The notes below the pieces were generated by a model that made no database searches, was not told the origin of the DNA, and was given only the letters and a program-made list of their open reading frames with translations. Source: an uncultured Bacteroidia bacterium (GTDB lineage Bacteria > Bacteroidota > Bacteroidia > Bacteroidales > UBA932). From it: a stretch of DNA of 64,000 bases. Position numbers and translations under genes: made by a program. The first letter of the stretch is position 1. Each line of letters opens with the position of its first letter. Shown piece after piece: positions 2,729 to 55,326 of this stretch. Location: NCBI GenBank assembly GCA_902785785.1, contig CADAAA010000003.1, positions 124,001-188,000 of the forward strand, given 5' to 3'.

Positions 2729-3583
2729 TCAGGGCTTGAGGCCGATGTACATGCGGCAGATGCCGAGGGTGAAGGCCTTGTGGCGTACGCCGGCGTAGCC
2801 GCAGGCGCGCATCGTGGCCATCCACTCGTCGCGGCCGGGGAAATTCAGCACTGACGCAGGGAGATACCGGTACGCAGCCTTGTCACCGGAGATCTTGCCG
2901 CCGATGATTGGGAGAGGGCCGGTGAAATACAGTTTGTAGAACCAGCGGATTACCGGGTTGGACGGGACTGAGAGTTCAAGGATGACGAGTTTGCCGCCGG
3001 GCTTCAGGACACGGAGGATCTCACGCAGGGCTGTCTCGCGGTGTTCGAAGTTCCTGATGCCGAAAGCGATTGTGACACAGTCGAATGCGGCATCGGCGTA
3101 GGGGAGGGCCTCGCTGTCGCCCTGCACGCAGGCGACGCGGTCCTCCAGGCCGGCGGCCGCGAGCTTGGCCCGCATCACGGCCAGCATGCCCTCGGAGAGG
3201 TCAAGGCCGGTGACGCGGCTGCCGGGCGCCATCGCGCGGGCAATGGCGATGCTGAAATCGCCCGTCCCGCACGCGATGTCAAGGATCTCCTGCGCGGCAG
3301 GATGCCCGACTATGCCGCTAGCGCTCTGAACGGCAGTGCCGTTTGCGCTCTGCGCGGTTTGTCGCGCAGTGCCGGAGGCTGGGCGCGTGGCGGCTTCCGG
3401 ATCGCTTCGGGGCCCGGTGTCGGCGCTAGCGCTGGCGCTGGGCGCCGGAGCTTTGCGGACGATCTCCTTGATCGCCCGCCGGCGCCAGCTGCGGTCAATA
3501 CCGAGTGACATTATATGGTTCAGGCGGTCGTAGTCTCCGGCGATCCCGTCGAACATCTGCTGTATCTTCTCCTTTTTCGGCAT
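2729..3583 (-). CDS. menG: Demethylmenaquinone methyltransferase (UbiE/MenG)
   Basis: SAM-dependent methyltransferase for the last step of menaquinone synthesis. The family N-terminus MPKKEKIQQMFDGIAGDYDR is present, then LNHIMSLGIDRSWRRR, the SAM motif I LDIACGTGDF near residue 101, and downstream motifs AFGIRNFEHRE and LRVLKPGGKLVILELS. I start at the Met of MPKKEK rather than 51 bases upstream, because the family starts there. The odd part is residues about 45-97, an Ala/Ser/Thr-rich stretch between the N-terminal helix and motif I where family members normally have only a short link. A TAnnTTTG box ends 8 bases before the ATG, so the mRNA may be almost leaderless. Confidence 0.93.
   Translation of the reverse strand: MPKKEKIQQMFDGIAGDYDRLNHIMSLGIDRSWRRRAIKEIVRKAPAPSASASADTGPRSDPEAATRPASGTARQTAQSANGTAVQSASGIVGHPAAQEILDIACGTGDFSIAIARAMAPGSRVTGLDLSEGMLAVMRAKLAAAGLEDRVACVQGDSEALPYADAAFDCVTIAFGIRNFEHRETALREILRVLKPGGKLVILELSVPSNPVIRWFYKLYFTGPLPIIGGKISGDKAAYRYLPASVLNFPGRDEWMATMRACGYAGVRHKAFTLGICRMYIGLKP
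3293..3451 (-). repeat. In-frame hairpin-rich insertion in menG
   Basis: DNA encoding residues about 45-97 of MenG. It is a chain of short inverted repeats (ACGGCA/TGCCGT; CTGCGCG/CGCGCAG; CCGGA/TCCGG) with the palindromic GCTAGCGC near both ends. The reading frame is kept and the product is low-complexity Ala/Ser/Thr. It looks like a palindromic repeat that entered the gene in frame. Confidence 0.6.
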
Positions 3584-3590
3584 ACTTCGG

Positions 3591-3598
3591 CAAATATA
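3591..3598 (-). promoter_or_regulatory. menG promoter -7 box TATATTTG
   Basis: The minus strand carries TATATTTG, an exact match to the Bacteroidetes -7 consensus TAnnTTTG. It ends 8 bases upstream of the chosen ATG at 3583, so transcription would start at or next to the start codon. No clear TTTG -33 box was found. Confidence 0.5.
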
Positions 3599-3639
3599 GC
3601 GATTTTCCAGCAGGGTCGGTTCATTTTGCAGCACCCTTC

Positions 3640-25545: not shown

Positions 25546-25827
25546 GAGCGTGAAAAGGGCGAAAATGAGCACGGGAAGCACATATTAGACGAGAATGTGC
25601 TCAAAAAAGGCAAATAAGAGCATGAAAAGCACAAAAACCGCAAGTTTGTGCTGAAAAAGGGGCTAAATCCGCACGGAGGAGGTGAGAATGAGAAATCGGT
25701 GCGGGAAAAAGGCAGAAAGCCGCACGGATGGCATAATTTAAGCGAGTGCGTGCTCAAAAACGGGCAAACCGAGCACGAAAAGCACAAAAACAGCGAGAAT
25801 GTGCTTGAAAAGGGCGGAAACGAGCAC
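25546..25827. repeat. 51-bp hairpin array B
   Basis: Six units start at 25546, 25597, 25648, 25699, 25750 and 25801, an exact 51-bp period. Each is a 27-bp hairpin (GTGCTC...GAGCAC or variants) plus a 24-bp linker. The unit at 25699 has GTGCGG...CCGCAC, a compensatory change. The first unit is degenerate. About 80 bases before it and 40 after it, to the flanking genes, hold nothing recognised. Confidence 0.88.
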
Positions 25828-26867: not shown

Positions 26868-27098
26868 GTGCTCAGAATGGGCCGAACCGAGCACCGGAGG
26901 CAGGGGGAAAGGCAGTCGGTGCTCAAGAGGGGCCGAATCGAGCACGAGAGACACGAAATAGACCAGCCCGTGCTCAAAAGCGCCCGAATCGAGCACAGGG
27001 AGCACAAGAATCGCGAGTTTGTGCTGAAAAAGGGGCAAAATCCGCACGGAGGAGGTGAGAATGAGGAATCGGTGCGGGAAAAGGCCGGAAAGTCGCAC
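26868..27098. repeat. 51-bp hairpin array C
   Basis: Units start at 26868, 26919, 26970, 27021 and 27072, each a 27-bp hairpin plus a 24-bp linker. Three stems are GTGCTC/GAGCAC and the last is GTGCG/CGCAC. The fourth and fifth units are nearly identical to 25648-25728 of array B, so the arrays are related and bracket the TagD fusion gene. Confidence 0.88.
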
Positions 27099-41821: not shown

Positions 41822-43047
41822 TGGAAGCATTATTCAAACTTTTGCGCATCGCGCTGGGTGGTGAGACGGATCTGTCGGTGCCGGAGGGCGCGGACTGGCC
41901 TGCGCTTGTGGCCTTGGCCACGGAGCAGGGCGTCGCAGCACTCGCGCACGATGGTTTGCAGAAGTGCTACGAGGCCGATCCTCGGCTTTCGCTCCCGTTG
42001 GACCGCGAGCTCAAGGCGGTGAAGTACGATTGGTTCGGGGCCACGTTGAACGTCGAGGTCGAGTGCGACAAGCAGTGGAAGGCGGTATCGGCGCTGGGAG
42101 AGTTGTTCTCGGCGGCCGGGCTTCGCACCTTGGTGCTGAAGGGCTTTGCGCTGGGCGAATGCTATCCGGTCCCGCAGCATCGGTATTCGTGCGATTTCGA
42201 CTGTTTCCTGATGGGCGACGGGCCGGCGACGGACCGGAGCGCGTTCGAGCAGGGGAATCGCGCGATGGAGGCTGCGGGGGTGAAGGTCCGTCGATTCCAT
42301 TACAAGCATTCGTCCTTCAAGTATGAAGGTGCGAGCGTCGAAAACCATCAGTTCCTGACGGGATGGCGTGGGAGCGTGCGCTGGAAGCGCTTCGAGCTCG
42401 AGCTTGAGCGGATGCTCGAAGCCCCGGGCGCGCTGCGGCCTTTGGAGGGGTCTTCGTTGTTGGTCGGCCCTCCGTTGTTCAATGCTCTTTTCCTGACCAG
42501 GCATGCGCACCAGCACTTTCTTGTGGAAGAAGGTATCTCGCTGCGGCATGTTTGCGACTGGGCGATGTTCCTGAAGCGATACCGCCAGGAGTTTGATTGG
42601 GAAGAATTCATGTCAATATGCTCCCGTTATGGCCTTTCGCGCTTCGCGGAGTCCATGACGCGCTTGGCGGAATATGTGTGCGGCGTCCCGGCTTCCGCCG
42701 GATCCGCCCGGCAGGGAGGCGCTGGCGATCCTCGCCGCCTCACCCCTGAGGACCGCAGAATGCTTGATGACATCCTGACGATAGGCGAGCGTTCCGGCTC
42801 CGTCGGATCCGCCCGGCAGGGAGGCGATGTCGAGCCTTGCCGCCTCACCCCTGCGGACCGCAGAATGCTTGATGACATCCTGACGATAGGCGAGCGTTCC
42901 GGCTCCGTCGGAGGCCGGCTCGGCATCGCGCTGCGGATCCTCCGCTCCGGCTGGAAATTCCGCCTCTTCTCCGACGAAACCCGCCTCGGCTGCCTCCTCC
43001 GCTACGTCTGGGGCTACTTCTTCGTCAAGGACCTTAAACTATCATGA
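41821..43047 (+). CDS. Nucleotidyltransferase-fold protein (NTP_transf_5 type)
   Basis: 408 residues from a GTG that overlaps the DegT stop. AGLRTLVLKGFALGECYP, then RYSCDFDCFLM, matches the uncharacterised nucleotidyltransferase family PF14907, common in polysaccharide loci; NHQFLTGWRGSVRWKRFE and HAHQHFLVEEGISLRHVCDW agree. The C-terminal part contains a perfect-frame 35-residue duplication (starting GSARQGG, ending SGSVG) not expected in the family. Function unknown. Confidence 0.75.
   Translation: MEALFKLLRIALGGETDLSVPEGADWPALVALATEQGVAALAHDGLQKCYEADPRLSLPLDRELKAVKYDWFGATLNVEVECDKQWKAVSALGELFSAAGLRTLVLKGFALGECYPVPQHRYSCDFDCFLMGDGPATDRSAFEQGNRAMEAAGVKVRRFHYKHSSFKYEGASVENHQFLTGWRGSVRWKRFELELERMLEAPGALRPLEGSSLLVGPPLFNALFLTRHAHQHFLVEEGISLRHVCDWAMFLKRYRQEFDWEEFMSICSRYGLSRFAESMTRLAEYVCGVPASAGSARQGGAGDPRRLTPEDRRMLDDILTIGERSGSVGSARQGGDVEPCRLTPADRRMLDDILTIGERSGSVGGRLGIALRILRSGWKFRLFSDETRLGCLLRYVWGYFFVKDLKLS
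42701..42910 (+). repeat. 105-bp in-frame tandem duplication
   Basis: GATCCGCCCGGCAGGGAGGC at 42701 recurs at 42806; the two 105-bp copies differ at few sites and both contain the inverted pair GAGGCG/CGCCTC. The unit encodes 35 residues, so the frame is kept. Confidence 0.9.
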
Positions 43048-46677: not shown

Positions 46678-47843
46678 TGGCAAAGAAGGTTTTTGTTTCG
46701 GGATGTTATGACCTGCTGCACAGCGGGCATGTGGAGTTTTTCCGGCAGGCGTCGGCGTATGGCGACTTGTATGTGGGTATCGGGTCGGATGCGACGATAT
46801 TGGACTATAAGCATCACAAGACCGTTTACAGTGAGCAGGAAAGGCTCTTCATGGTGAAGAGCATCCGCTATGTGAAGGATGCGTTCATCAATGCCGGAAG
46901 CGGGGTGATGGATTTCGTGCCGACTGTGGATTTCCTCAAGCCGGATATACTGGTCGTGAATGAGGATGGCGGGAGCGAGGAGAAGAAGCGGTTTTGCGAA
47001 GAGCGGGGGATCGAGTACGTAGTACTCTCCCGCGACCCCCACGAGGGGCTGGAGGCCCGCTCGAGCACATCTTTGAAGAAAGTGGGGAGCCGGATACCGA
47101 CGCGTCTGGACCTGGCGGGGACGTGGATAGACCAGCCGTATGTGTCTTGTTTCGCTCCGGGCTGGGCTATCACGATCTCGCTGGAGCCGACGTTCGAGGT
47201 GCGGGAGCGTTGCGGGCTGTCGACTTCAACGCGCAATGTGATAAAGAAGATATGGCCTTACCAGCTGCCGAACATGGACCCCGAGATGCTGGCTAAACTG
47301 GTTTTCTGCTTCGAGAATGACCCCGAGCGGTCCGACGGGATCGTGTCCGGGGCTCAGGATTCCATCGGAATCTGCGTGCCCGGACTCTGCCGGCATTATT
47401 ATGACAACCGTTTCTGGCCGGACAAGATCGAGACCTGCTACGACGAGAATGTACTCTCGTGGCTGGAGGAACATCTGTGCATGATACCGATGTTTCCCCG
47501 GCGGCCGGGGTGCTCGGTGGTAGCCGGGAAGGATATCACCGAGGCTAAGGTCCGGGCGCTCGCGTCCGCAGCGGAACGCTGCTGGGACGCGATCCTGGCC
47601 CGGGACCTCGACGCCTTCGCCGGCGCCTACCGGGCCTCCTTCGAGGCCCAGGTGGCGATGTTCCCGGCGATGATCCAGCCCGGCGTGCAGGAGTACATTG
47701 ACATGTACTCCGCCCAGCCGGGCGTCCTCGCCTGGAAGATGCCGGGCGCCGGCGGCGGGGGCTACCTCGCGCTCGTCTGCGCCTCGCGCTCCGCCTTCCC
47801 CCCCGCCGCCATCCCCCTCACCATCCGCCGCCCCGGTATGTAA
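46677..47843 (+). CDS. Cytidylyltransferase fused to GHMP-kinase-like domain
   Basis: 388 residues. Residues 1-140: nucleotidyltransferase with FVSGCYDLLHSGHVEFFRQA (HSGH). Residues about 145-375: GHMP-like fold, RLDLAGTWIDQPYVS and MPGAGGGGYLALV, but the usual ATP loop is replaced by SGAQDSIGICVPGL, so kinase activity is uncertain. Similar fusions occur in Bacteroidales polysaccharide loci. The last 11 residues (IPLTIRRPGM) are encoded by the first unit of a 45-bp tandem repeat, so the natural C-terminus seems overwritten. Substrate unknown; a role in nucleotide-sugar supply fits the gmd-fcl operon. Confidence 0.75.
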   Translation: MAKKVFVSGCYDLLHSGHVEFFRQASAYGDLYVGIGSDATILDYKHHKTVYSEQERLFMVKSIRYVKDAFINAGSGVMDFVPTVDFLKPDILVVNEDGGSEEKKRFCEERGIEYVVLSRDPHEGLEARSSTSLKKVGSRIPTRLDLAGTWIDQPYVSCFAPGWAITISLEPTFEVRERCGLSTSTRNVIKKIWPYQLPNMDPEMLAKLVFCFENDPERSDGIVSGAQDSIGICVPGLCRHYYDNRFWPDKIETCYDENVLSWLEEHLCMIPMFPRRPGCSVVAGKDITEAKVRALASAAERCWDAILARDLDAFAGAYRASFEAQVAMFPAMIQPGVQEYIDMYSAQPGVLAWKMPGAGGGGYLALVCASRSAFPPAAIPLTIRRPGM

Positions 47844-48108
47844 CCCCTCCGCCATCCCCCCTCACCATCCGCTGCCCGTATGTGACCCCGCCGCCGTGAT
47901 CCCCCTCACCATCCGCCGCCCCGGTATGTATCCCGCCAGCCTGCTCTCTCTCACCATCCGCTGCCCGGTATGTGACCCCGCCGCCGTGATCCCCCTCACC
48001 ATCCGCTGCCCGGTATGTGACCCCGCCGCCGTGATCCCCCTCACCTTCCGCCGCCCCGGTATGTAACCCCGCCGCCGTGATCCCCCTCACCTTTCGCCGC
48101 CGTATTCC
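47811..48108. repeat. 45-bp GC-rich tandem repeat
   Basis: TCACC within ATCCCCCTCACCATCCGC recurs near 47818, 47862, 47906, 47951, 47996, 48041 and 48087: seven units of 44-46 bp. The first unit encodes the end of the cytidylyltransferase/kinase protein. Confidence 0.9.
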
Positions 48109-48682: not shown

Positions 48683-49015
48683 GCGCATGTTTTCCCCGTT
48701 TTTGTGCGCTTTTCGCCGGAATCGGCTGCTTCCGCGCACGTTTTTCCCGTTTTCGTGCGCTTTTCCCCGTGATCGTCTGCTTCCGCGCACGTTTTCCTCA
48801 TTTTCGTGCGCTTTTCCCGGTGATCGTCTGCTTCCGCGCGCGTTTTCCTCATTTTTGTGCGCTTTTCCCCGTGATCGTCTGCTTCCGCGCATGTTTTCCC
48901 CATTTTCGTGCGCTTTTCCCGCTGATCGTCTGCTTATGCGCACGTTTTCCCCGTTTTCGTGCGCTTTTCCCCGTGATCGTCTGCTTCCGCGCATGTTTTC
49001 CCCGTTTTTGTGCGC
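48683..49015. repeat. 51-bp hairpin array D
   Basis: Seven units at 48683, 48734, 48785, 48836, 48887, 48938 and 48989. Each has a 27-bp hairpin (GCGCACG/CGTGCGC, with A-to-G and T-G wobble variants) and a 24-bp linker such as CTTTTCCCCGTGATCGTCTG plus a few bases. All three frames on both strands stay largely open because 51 is a multiple of 3. That is an artefact. No gene was found in 49016-49247. Confidence 0.9.
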
Positions 49016-49247: not shown

Positions 49248-49421
49248 CTCTAACCCGGGCACAATTCACTATTTGGCGATATGCATCAAGCGCGAAATCG
49301 GCCTTTGAGGGGCAAAAACGCGGCAGATGCGACATTGTAATGTCGCATGAAGAGCGTTTTCCTTCACCAAATGCCGAAAGTGCGCTTGGTCGGAATTGCA
49401 CTGGGGAGCGCTTTGGCCTAC
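49248..49421. repeat. Approximately 175-bp direct repeat, copy 1
   Basis: Runs from CTCTAACC to TTTGGCCTA; nearly identical to 49911-50092. It contains a perfect 10-bp palindrome ATGCGACATT/AATGTCGCAT at 49327-49348. No coding potential was recognised. Confidence 0.85.
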
Positions 49422-49910: not shown

Positions 49911-50092
49911 CTCTAACCAGGGCGCAATTTACTACTTGGCGATATGCATCAAGCGCGAAATCGGCCTTTGAGGGGCAAAAACGCGGCAGATGCGACATTA
50001 AAATGTCGCATGAAGAGCGTTTTCCCTCGCCAAATGCCAAAAGTGCGCTTGGTCGGAATTGTATTGGGGGGGCGCTTGGGCTAAGCTTGCAA
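49911..50092. repeat. Approximately 180-bp direct repeat, copy 2
   Basis: Second copy of 49248-49421, offset by 663 bp, with the palindrome at 49990-50011. Both copies keep the arm sequences exactly; only the 2-nt loop differs (GT versus AA). Confidence 0.85.
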
Positions 50093-54870: not shown

Positions 54871-55150
54871 TTCTGCACAGGAGGATCCCAGACATCTTCT
54901 CAGTCCTCCTACGCGCAGGGAAACCCCCTCCAAGCGTGTTCCGACCCGCGCAGGAGGACCCCAGACATCTTTTCAGTCCTCCTACGCGCAGGGAAACCAC
55001 TCCCAAGCGTGTTTCGGCTCTCACAGGAGGAATGTCGGCGCCCTTGCACTCCTCCTGTGCAGATGGAAACCACTCCCAAGCATGTTCTGACTCGCACAGG
55101 AGGACCCCAGACATCTTTTCAGTCCTCCTACGCACCGTACTCCTCCTTCG
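54871..55150. repeat. 73-bp tandem repeat with AGGAGGA hairpins
   Basis: Four units begin near 54871, 54939, 55012 and 55085. Each contains CACAGGAGGA or a variant, CCCAGACATCTTTTCAG, TCCTCCTACGCGCAGGGAAA and CTCCCAAGCGTGTT. The AGGAGGA and TCCTCCT arms pair. Related to 1891-2007. The stretch 54725-54870 before it holds no gene. Confidence 0.85.
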
Positions 55151-55200
55151 CAAGCGCGGCGAGTGGAATCCCGCCGTTCCCGTCTCGGATTCCCGATAAA

Positions 55201-55326
55201 TGAACAAAACGGGCAGTTTTGTTCAGGATAGACGCCAAGACTATTAAATCTGAACAAAAACGGCCGTTTTGTTCAGAATTGCGCCCGAAATCGCTGAAAA
55301 TGAACGAAATCGGCCTATTTGTTCAT
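55201..55326. repeat. 50-bp hairpin array E
   Basis: TGAAC begins units at 55201, 55251 and 55301, an exact 50-bp period. The middle unit is a near-perfect palindrome CTGAACAAAAAC / GTTTTGTTCAG of 27 bp with a 23-bp linker; the outer two are TGAACAAAAC/GTTTTGTTCA and TGAACGAAAT/TATTTGTTCA. The stem sequence is shared with array A 53 kb away. Confidence 0.88.

Follow-up and report, generated by a model that had tools for sequence, protein, structure and literature searches.

REP-like hairpin arrays with a near-constant spacing of about 51 bp accompany a genus-restricted clade of RAYT-like transposases in uncultured Bacteroidales

In a REPtron, REP sequences lie on either side of the RAYT/TnpAREP gene to which they belong (PMC6006769, PMC8266576), and in REPINs two inverted REPs form a pair whose spacing differs by REP type, the distances given being 71 and 110 bp (PMC3116915). 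The accounts cited here already describe REP doublets whose spacing is constant within a type, clusters in tandem next to RAYT genes, and palindromes of atypical form in Bacteroidetes. We found no report of one spacing common to different REP types in the open-access literature, a body of text mostly without subscription papers. New here are a fixed geometry of about 51 bp that spans many private hairpins and a transposase clade restricted to one genus. The starting point was a 64-kb stretch of DNA, hereafter the window (C3:124001-188000), from the 2.36-Mb, 12-contig genome (G000) of an uncultured Bacteroidales bacterium whose closest named relatives, with one protein compared, are MAGs of uncultured Bacteroidales from sheep omasum (70% identity) and buffalo rumen (67%).

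An initial annotation of the window had reported five hairpin arrays beginning at 2211, 25546, 26868, 48683, and 55201, and all five are present with their hairpins in register. The family A array (GCGCAC...GTGCGC, 48683-49015) contains seven hairpins of 27 bp separated by 24-bp linkers, with all six intervals at 51 bp. Family C (TGAACA...TGTTCA) forms one array of four units at 2214-2388, with a period of 50, a core span of 25, and a linker of 25, and another of three hairpins at 55201-55325, also of period 50. The remaining two arrays combine family B stems (GTGCTC/GAGCAC) with units of family E (GTGCGG/CCGCAC). The first, at 25546-25827, has six units in a 51-bp register, of which unit 1 is degenerate, and includes a B/E hybrid at 25648-25674 and a family E unit at 25699-25725; the second, at 26868-27098, has five units of period 51, three belonging to family B, with a B/E hybrid at 27021-27047 and an E-like unit with one arm mismatch at 27072-27098. 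The single hybrid of each array joins a B-type left arm to an E-type right arm in register, and the hybrid and E stretch of the second array is a near-repeat, in the same orientation, of 25648-25725. A near-identical stretch common to both GTGCTC arrays covers 25640-25725 and 27013-27098 in direct orientation, and the two arrays flank one gene of about 1 kb, a cytidylyltransferase/GFO_IDH fusion.

The periods proposed for these arrays were borne out, at 50 for the two beginning at 2214 and 55201 and 51 for the three beginning at 25546, 26868, and 48683. Other parts of the initial description held only in part: a hairpin of about 27 bp with a linker of 23-24 bp fits array 48683 (27/24) but not the TGAACA units, with their 25-bp core and 25-bp linker, and the arrays are unrelated in sequence insofar as linkers are nearly unrelated between arrays, but the stems GCGCAC, GAGCAC, and TGAACA have a weak purine-CA core in common. 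Tandem Repeats Finder (TRF) at score 40 called period 50/51 only for the window arrays 48683 and 2231; the other three went uncalled because they are too diverged, though in register.

Hairpins with these stems exceed chance across the whole genome. The pattern GCRCAC-N5..30-GTGYGC gave 38 matches against 7 for its reversed-pattern control, with 33 of the 38 spanning 27; GTGCTC-N5..30-GAGCAC gave 42 against 2 (33 of 42 spanning 27); and TGAACA-N5..30-TGTTCA gave 45 against 1, with a span of 25 in 28 and 26 in 3. When units were chained into arrays, accepting intervals of 46-55, the interval was 51 in 31 of 32 cases for type A and 32 of 32 for type B, and 50 in 24 of 29 for type C. We also surveyed tandem repeats by TRF (period at least 20, score at least 80) in 464 kb, about one fifth of the genome, made up of the window and a grid of 20 x 20 kb. 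Six of the 12 arrays had period 50 or 51, two of these six flanking one transposase gene, and the other six had periods of 22, 33, 41, 45, 73, and 105, one array each. An excess over other periods was what the initial annotation had named as support for its reading.

Each of the three stem types in the window corresponds to a different transposase paralog in the same genome. At one locus (L003), a single gene lies between two GCGCAC arrays, and its product carries NHVH and, later, YNNRNG, which resemble the HuH and Y motifs of Y1 transposases. A search with the L003/L057 protein returned eight more homologs in the genome (E ≤ 10), with none in the window. The L057 transposase gene (G000:C5:136102-137067) has GCGCACG arrays on both sides, the stem of array 48683 and family A; the L058 gene (G000:C12:11180) is flanked on both sides by GTGCTC arrays, the family B stem; and the L059 gene (G000:C5:148495-149394) has arrays of TCTGAACA, the family C TGAACA stem, on both sides. 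For families A, B, and C, then, one private palindrome family flanks a gene and has copies elsewhere in this genome. The initial annotation had suspected a protein behind the arrays, and the HuH/Y1 transposases, one next to arrays of every stem type, are now candidates for it.

Three further paralogs carry other palindromes, spaced 51, 52, or 102 bp: AAGCACA at L060, GTGCGGG at L061 (G000:C4:219645), and GTAGACGGTCCA at L062, with GTAG inside the arm. Units of the GTGCGG type in window arrays 25546 and 26868 are similar to those at L061, where the palindrome pairs at 1396-1473 and 2579-2655 on either side of the gene are near-identical and in direct rather than inverted orientation. No arrays of about 51 bp were found in the transposase flanks of L063, L064, and L065 in this genome. 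Palindromes of the GGCAGATGCGACATTG type occur in the window at 49322-49337 and 49985-50000, next to array 48683; because a GGCAGATGCGACATTG-type element also stands on both sides of L065 (G000:C1:216612), one of the distant homologs of the transposase, it follows that one more transposase-linked family is represented in the window.

Of the 76 encoded ORFs, 67 carry the HuH motif together with Y---[NQ][GPASC], the two being a median of 55 residues apart, and M73, N75, H76, H78, Y134, N138, and Q294 are invariant in 36 aligned members. The NCBIfam model REP_Tyr_transpos (NF047646) matched 15 of these 36 at E ≤ 0.01 (best 7.6e-11), with L062 scoring 36.7 bits against a cut-off of 80 bits, and Pfam Y1_Tnp matched 6 of 36; the L057 protein alone had no Pfam or NCBIfam match. 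The family profile retrieved five sequences from the PDB, all annotated as transposases, with weak scores (E 0.056-0.21), and the one alignment shown spans the HuH region. A direct relation to E. coli RayT was considered and dropped, as hhalign gave no significant match (probability 0.4%).

The arrangement has much in common with REPtrons: an HuH/Y1 gene with flanking palindromes, copies elsewhere, one transposase per palindrome family, and several families per genome (PMC6006769, PMC8266576). It differs in that families A, B, and C have no GT[AG]G foot, in the length of the proteins (about 300 residues), and in tandem units about 51 bp apart regardless of palindrome sequence. Because the canonical GTAG/GTGG at the hairpin foot is absent by eye in the printed A, B, and C units, we call these hairpins REP-like rather than canonical REPs. 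The view that no named repeat class fits the arrays therefore has to be given up in favor of a match to REPtrons and BIMEs in arrangement, though with hairpins that lack the canonical GTAG foot. As in BIMEs, the arrays can be mosaic, with arrays 25546 and 26868 mixing B and E units and a hybrid in register, but BIME linkers are described as variable (PMC8266576) and those here are of near-fixed length. Family C resembles REPINs in occurring mainly as doublets at near-constant spacing, and ordered tandem clusters, including clusters beside RAYT genes, are described for REPINs too (PMC3116915); unlike REPINs, each unit here is itself palindromic and the spacing is about 51 bp for all types. TnpAY1 subclass 2.6, or RAYT group 5, is also similar as described, being mostly from Bacteroidetes with atypical, weaker, genome-recurrent palindromes that lack GT[AG]G (PMC6006769). 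The distance between HuH and Y sets it apart by that description, with a median of 82 in subclass 2.6 and 58-67 in most subclasses (PMC6006769) against 55 here, a comparison in which the counting methods may differ. Because of this distance and the weak family matches, we call the proteins RAYT-like and keep them out of subclass 2.6.

Folding of doublets as single-stranded DNA does not decide the mechanism. The one-long-hairpin fold of the REPIN type was seen for the type C doublet at 55195-55281, which is nested, and weakly for the type B doublet at 26919-26996, while one type A doublet and the L062 pair each gave two hairpins and L072 and L085 were weak. The palindromic units could also suit a role in transcripts, as terminators or stabilizers of mRNA ends, of the kind described for REPs elsewhere (PMC6006769); one array does lie between convergent genes, and no window array overlaps a family-matched ORF (10 ORFs scanned). 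We consider such a role very unlikely, as it predicts neither a near-constant 51-bp period nor private stems beside transposase genes, and type A loops are long, at 13 nt. Array 48683 is moreover overlapped by mechanical ORFs without a family match. At gathering thresholds, the sole Rfam match in the whole window was a tRNA.

Of 61 genomes from the genus, our own among them, at least 50 contain homologs at E ≤ 1e-8. For a survey of spacing, we assembled 76 loci with flanks, comprising 9 from this genome and 67 others from the listed matches, taken best per genome first and then down the list; L127 had also been picked but tblastn did not recover it, and L114 was taken for its arrays. Of the 76, 14 had a flank shorter than 700 bp on one side. 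Pairs of palindromes with the same arm (arms of at least 6, 1500-bp flanks) were 51 bp apart in 30 of the 76 loci, 52 in 5, and 50 in 4, with the doubled distances of 102 bp (12 loci) and 100 bp (3 loci); no further distance was seen in more than two loci. Pairs at 50-52 bp were absent from shuffled flanks and from 20 random loci of the genus, and they occurred in 5 of 20 stretches of our own 20 x 20-kb grid, as scattered arrays predict. Within 700-bp flanks, pairs at about 50-52 bp were present in 36 of 76 loci with arms of at least 6 and 48 of 76 with arms of at least 5, while 0 of 60 control segments had any at either arm length.

These controls bear on another account, that ordinary replication slippage of hairpin-prone tandem repeats made the arrays with no transposase link. 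The arrays are internally homogeneous and show higher-order repeats of 102 and 153 bp, as slippage would produce, yet beside transposase genes a period of 50-52 keeps returning in arrays whose stems differ and whose linkers are nearly unrelated, and 0 of 60 controls show it. The period survey, the spacing across the genus, and the control segments already disfavor slippage, which we regard as exceedingly improbable.

We removed three loci with a stop inside the BLAST segment, leaving 73 usable, of which 47 had arrays of about 51 bp (arms of at least 5, 700-bp flanks), with no such array within 700 bp at the other 26. The dominant spacing was 51 in 34 of the 47, 52 in 7, 50 in 5, and 52.5 in 1, and the 47 loci had 38 different commonest arm 5-mers, so that the proposal of a spacing kept while sequence is not extends well beyond the window. 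A stricter test (1500 bp, double spacing also accepted) found arrays in 37 of 73 loci, and the share drops with distance from L057, from 31 of 52 near homologs to 6 of 21 distant ones. Among transposase pairs at least 45% identical, 8 of 63 had an arm 5-mer in common (shuffled mean 3.8, P 0.03), and stems therefore turn over fast yet are not fully random.

The arrays fall in a clade of 53 rows and in three of the seven rows of a separate clade (L062, L129, L131). When 247 genomes of the order were searched with the family profile at E ≤ 1e-15, matches came only from our own genome and a second member of its genus; the two other genera of the family represented among the 247 gave none. For comparison, we searched other Bacteroidales with NF047646 and took 30 RAYT loci from 75 genomes with a match. 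None of the 30 had pairs at about 51 bp with arms of at least 6; with arms of at least 5, one (700 bp) and two (1500 bp) of the 30 did, each with one 49.5-bp pair.

Regular spacing raises the question of whether the arrays are kept as sites for a host protein such as gyrase or a nucleoid protein, the transposase being only their past source. This idea has some precedent, since IHF, DNA polymerase I, and gyrase are all said to bind REPs (PMC6006769). A conserved protein would favor one sequence, however, and the stem is private to each array-bearing paralog and differs between genomes; nor is 51 bp an exact multiple of 10.5. We therefore think host-protein sites an unlikely explanation.

The linkers show how arrays may have grown. 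Within arrays they are alike, with identities of 0.77 in family A, 0.69 in B, and 0.63 in C (only 8 pairs in the last). Between arrays, the better of the two orientations gave 0.41, 0.42, and 0.44 for A, B, and C against 0.31, 0.32, and 0.30 for shuffled linkers, with single array pairs reaching 0.83 and 0.92. At the sequence level, this pattern points to local extension in steps of about 51 bp after founding, with linker length kept and linker sequence not. CRISPR arrays were rejected as an identity, since linkers alike within arrays (0.63-0.77) are not unrelated spacers.

Dispersal was followed in this genome for family C, with cluster loci picked from the whole-genome listing of the TGAACA pattern. 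Doublets predominate in this family: the 13 clusters that lie neither in the window nor near L059 comprise 10 doublets, two triplets, and one singlet. Families A and B occur mostly as longer arrays. Among the 31 family C hairpins with a span of 25-26 in the genome listing, 29 lie close to another, at distances of 50 (12), 51 (2), and 150 (1). Twelve dispersed doublets, chosen for exact 50-bp spacing, had a median linker-core identity of 0.35 against a null of 0.29. Recent transposition of the element alone was considered for L180/L185 and for the two doublets of L182, pairs with linkers in common, and rejected: homology extends well beyond the doublets, and because the pairs are part of longer segmental duplications we dropped them as evidence of mobility. 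At L182, the near-identical doublets at 1483-1558 and 2701-2775 flank one gene, presumably for a symporter-like membrane protein; the homology begins at about the doublet and continues for more than 200 bp with gaps, which suggests duplication at doublets.

The main rival to a spacing set by the transposase is that the period was inherited and indels are selected against. An ancestral array of about 51 bp would have been duplicated with the transposase gene, substitutions altering stems and linkers, indels being rare, and unequal crossing-over homogenizing each array. A spacing of about 51 bp across deep branches of one transposase clade, local homogenization, and the slight similarity of linkers between arrays (0.41-0.44 against 0.30-0.32 shuffled) are all in keeping with this. 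Harder to reconcile with it are the near-invariant intervals of all three types and the linkers of family C doublets, which are near random while the 50-bp distance holds. Since linkers have drifted while unselected neighbor distances stay at 50-51 (150 once), either indels are selected against or length is reset at copying. We rate inheritance as possible rather than probable.

Array 2214-2388 also allowed presence to be compared among relatives. It lies between the two genes of a convergent pair: the first ("men", 697-1602) has a product that we take to be a UbiA-like prenyltransferase, and the second is a ubiE-family gene by Pfam (2729-3634). The junction sample comprised 35 loci from other genomes (29 of the 34 such matches listed, plus L021-L026), of which 15 had the convergent pair, 12 had no ubiE in the available flank, 7 had ubiE elsewhere or in another orientation, and 1 lacked the first gene. 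The 15 convergent loci represent 13 distinct relatives, as L023 equals L255 and L025 equals L251. The gap between men and ubiE is 1130 bp here and -10 to 136 bp in all 13. Judged from these gaps, the array is a lineage-specific presence at its site. The 1.1-kb insert also contains other repeats, so the gap is not a clean empty site and need not mark the limits of the array itself. No transposase homolog was detected by tblastn at 1e-3 in the related loci L021-L035. In G019, arrays of another stem stand on both sides of the first gene; in G044, the first gene is followed by a transposase gene; and in L249 what looks like a 50-bp pair, located 539 bp beyond the first gene, falls outside the junction. 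The SIMPL neighbor of array 55201 was set aside as a second such site, because relatives are 33-38% identical and orthology is unclear.

We detected several other repeats nearby. A CCTCC-rich 18-mer tandem repeat occupies 1611-1835 inside the men-ubiE gap, and the window has further tandem repeats of 45 bp (47798-48101) and 105 bp (42683-42912). Six AGGAGGA...TCCTCCT palindromes of 32 bp lie 73 bp apart at 1896-2000 and 54879-55129, which is another constant spacing, with no transposase partner identified.

The comparisons above make it very probable that these arrays belong, as REP-like elements, to RAYT-type HuH/Y1 transposases of a clade confined to one genus of uncultured Bacteroidales; we infer that the spacing of about 51 bp is set by the protein or its reaction. 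Each array-bearing transposase gene sits beside or between arrays of its own palindrome, and copies in this genome are scattered as doublets or longer arrays. From known HuH/Y1 biology (PMC8266576, PMC6006769), the likely activity is to bind single strands and to cleave them close to the hairpin: the transposase may bind its own hairpin in single-stranded DNA, probably on the lagging-strand template, and cut and rejoin near it, spreading doublets and lengthening arrays. The distance from hairpin to hairpin would be fixed by the protein complex or its reaction, and it would persist while the arm sequence, and presumably the recognition surface of the protein, changes from paralog to paralog.

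A mechanism that copies by measuring about 50 bp, as raised in the initial annotation, could be at work, because linkers are alike within but not between arrays. In its strongest form, the transposase would be a molecular ruler that cuts at a fixed distance, so that the hairpin and about 24 nt travel together and copying on a 51-nt intermediate, for example by rolling-circle or template switching, adds 51-bp steps. We find this version rather doubtful. If true, array-specific linkers would be flanking DNA that had been captured, and many different specificities for hairpin recognition would have arisen on a ruler that itself stayed unchanged.

How RAYTs recognize their palindromes and disseminate them, and what makes cells retain these, is a standing question. 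The present reading explains one class of short tandem repeats in the genus as transposase-linked elements, and a single genus with dozens of paralogs, each with a private hairpin and nearly one spacing, offers a natural data set from which the residues that select the hairpin, and those that fix the distance, could be read.
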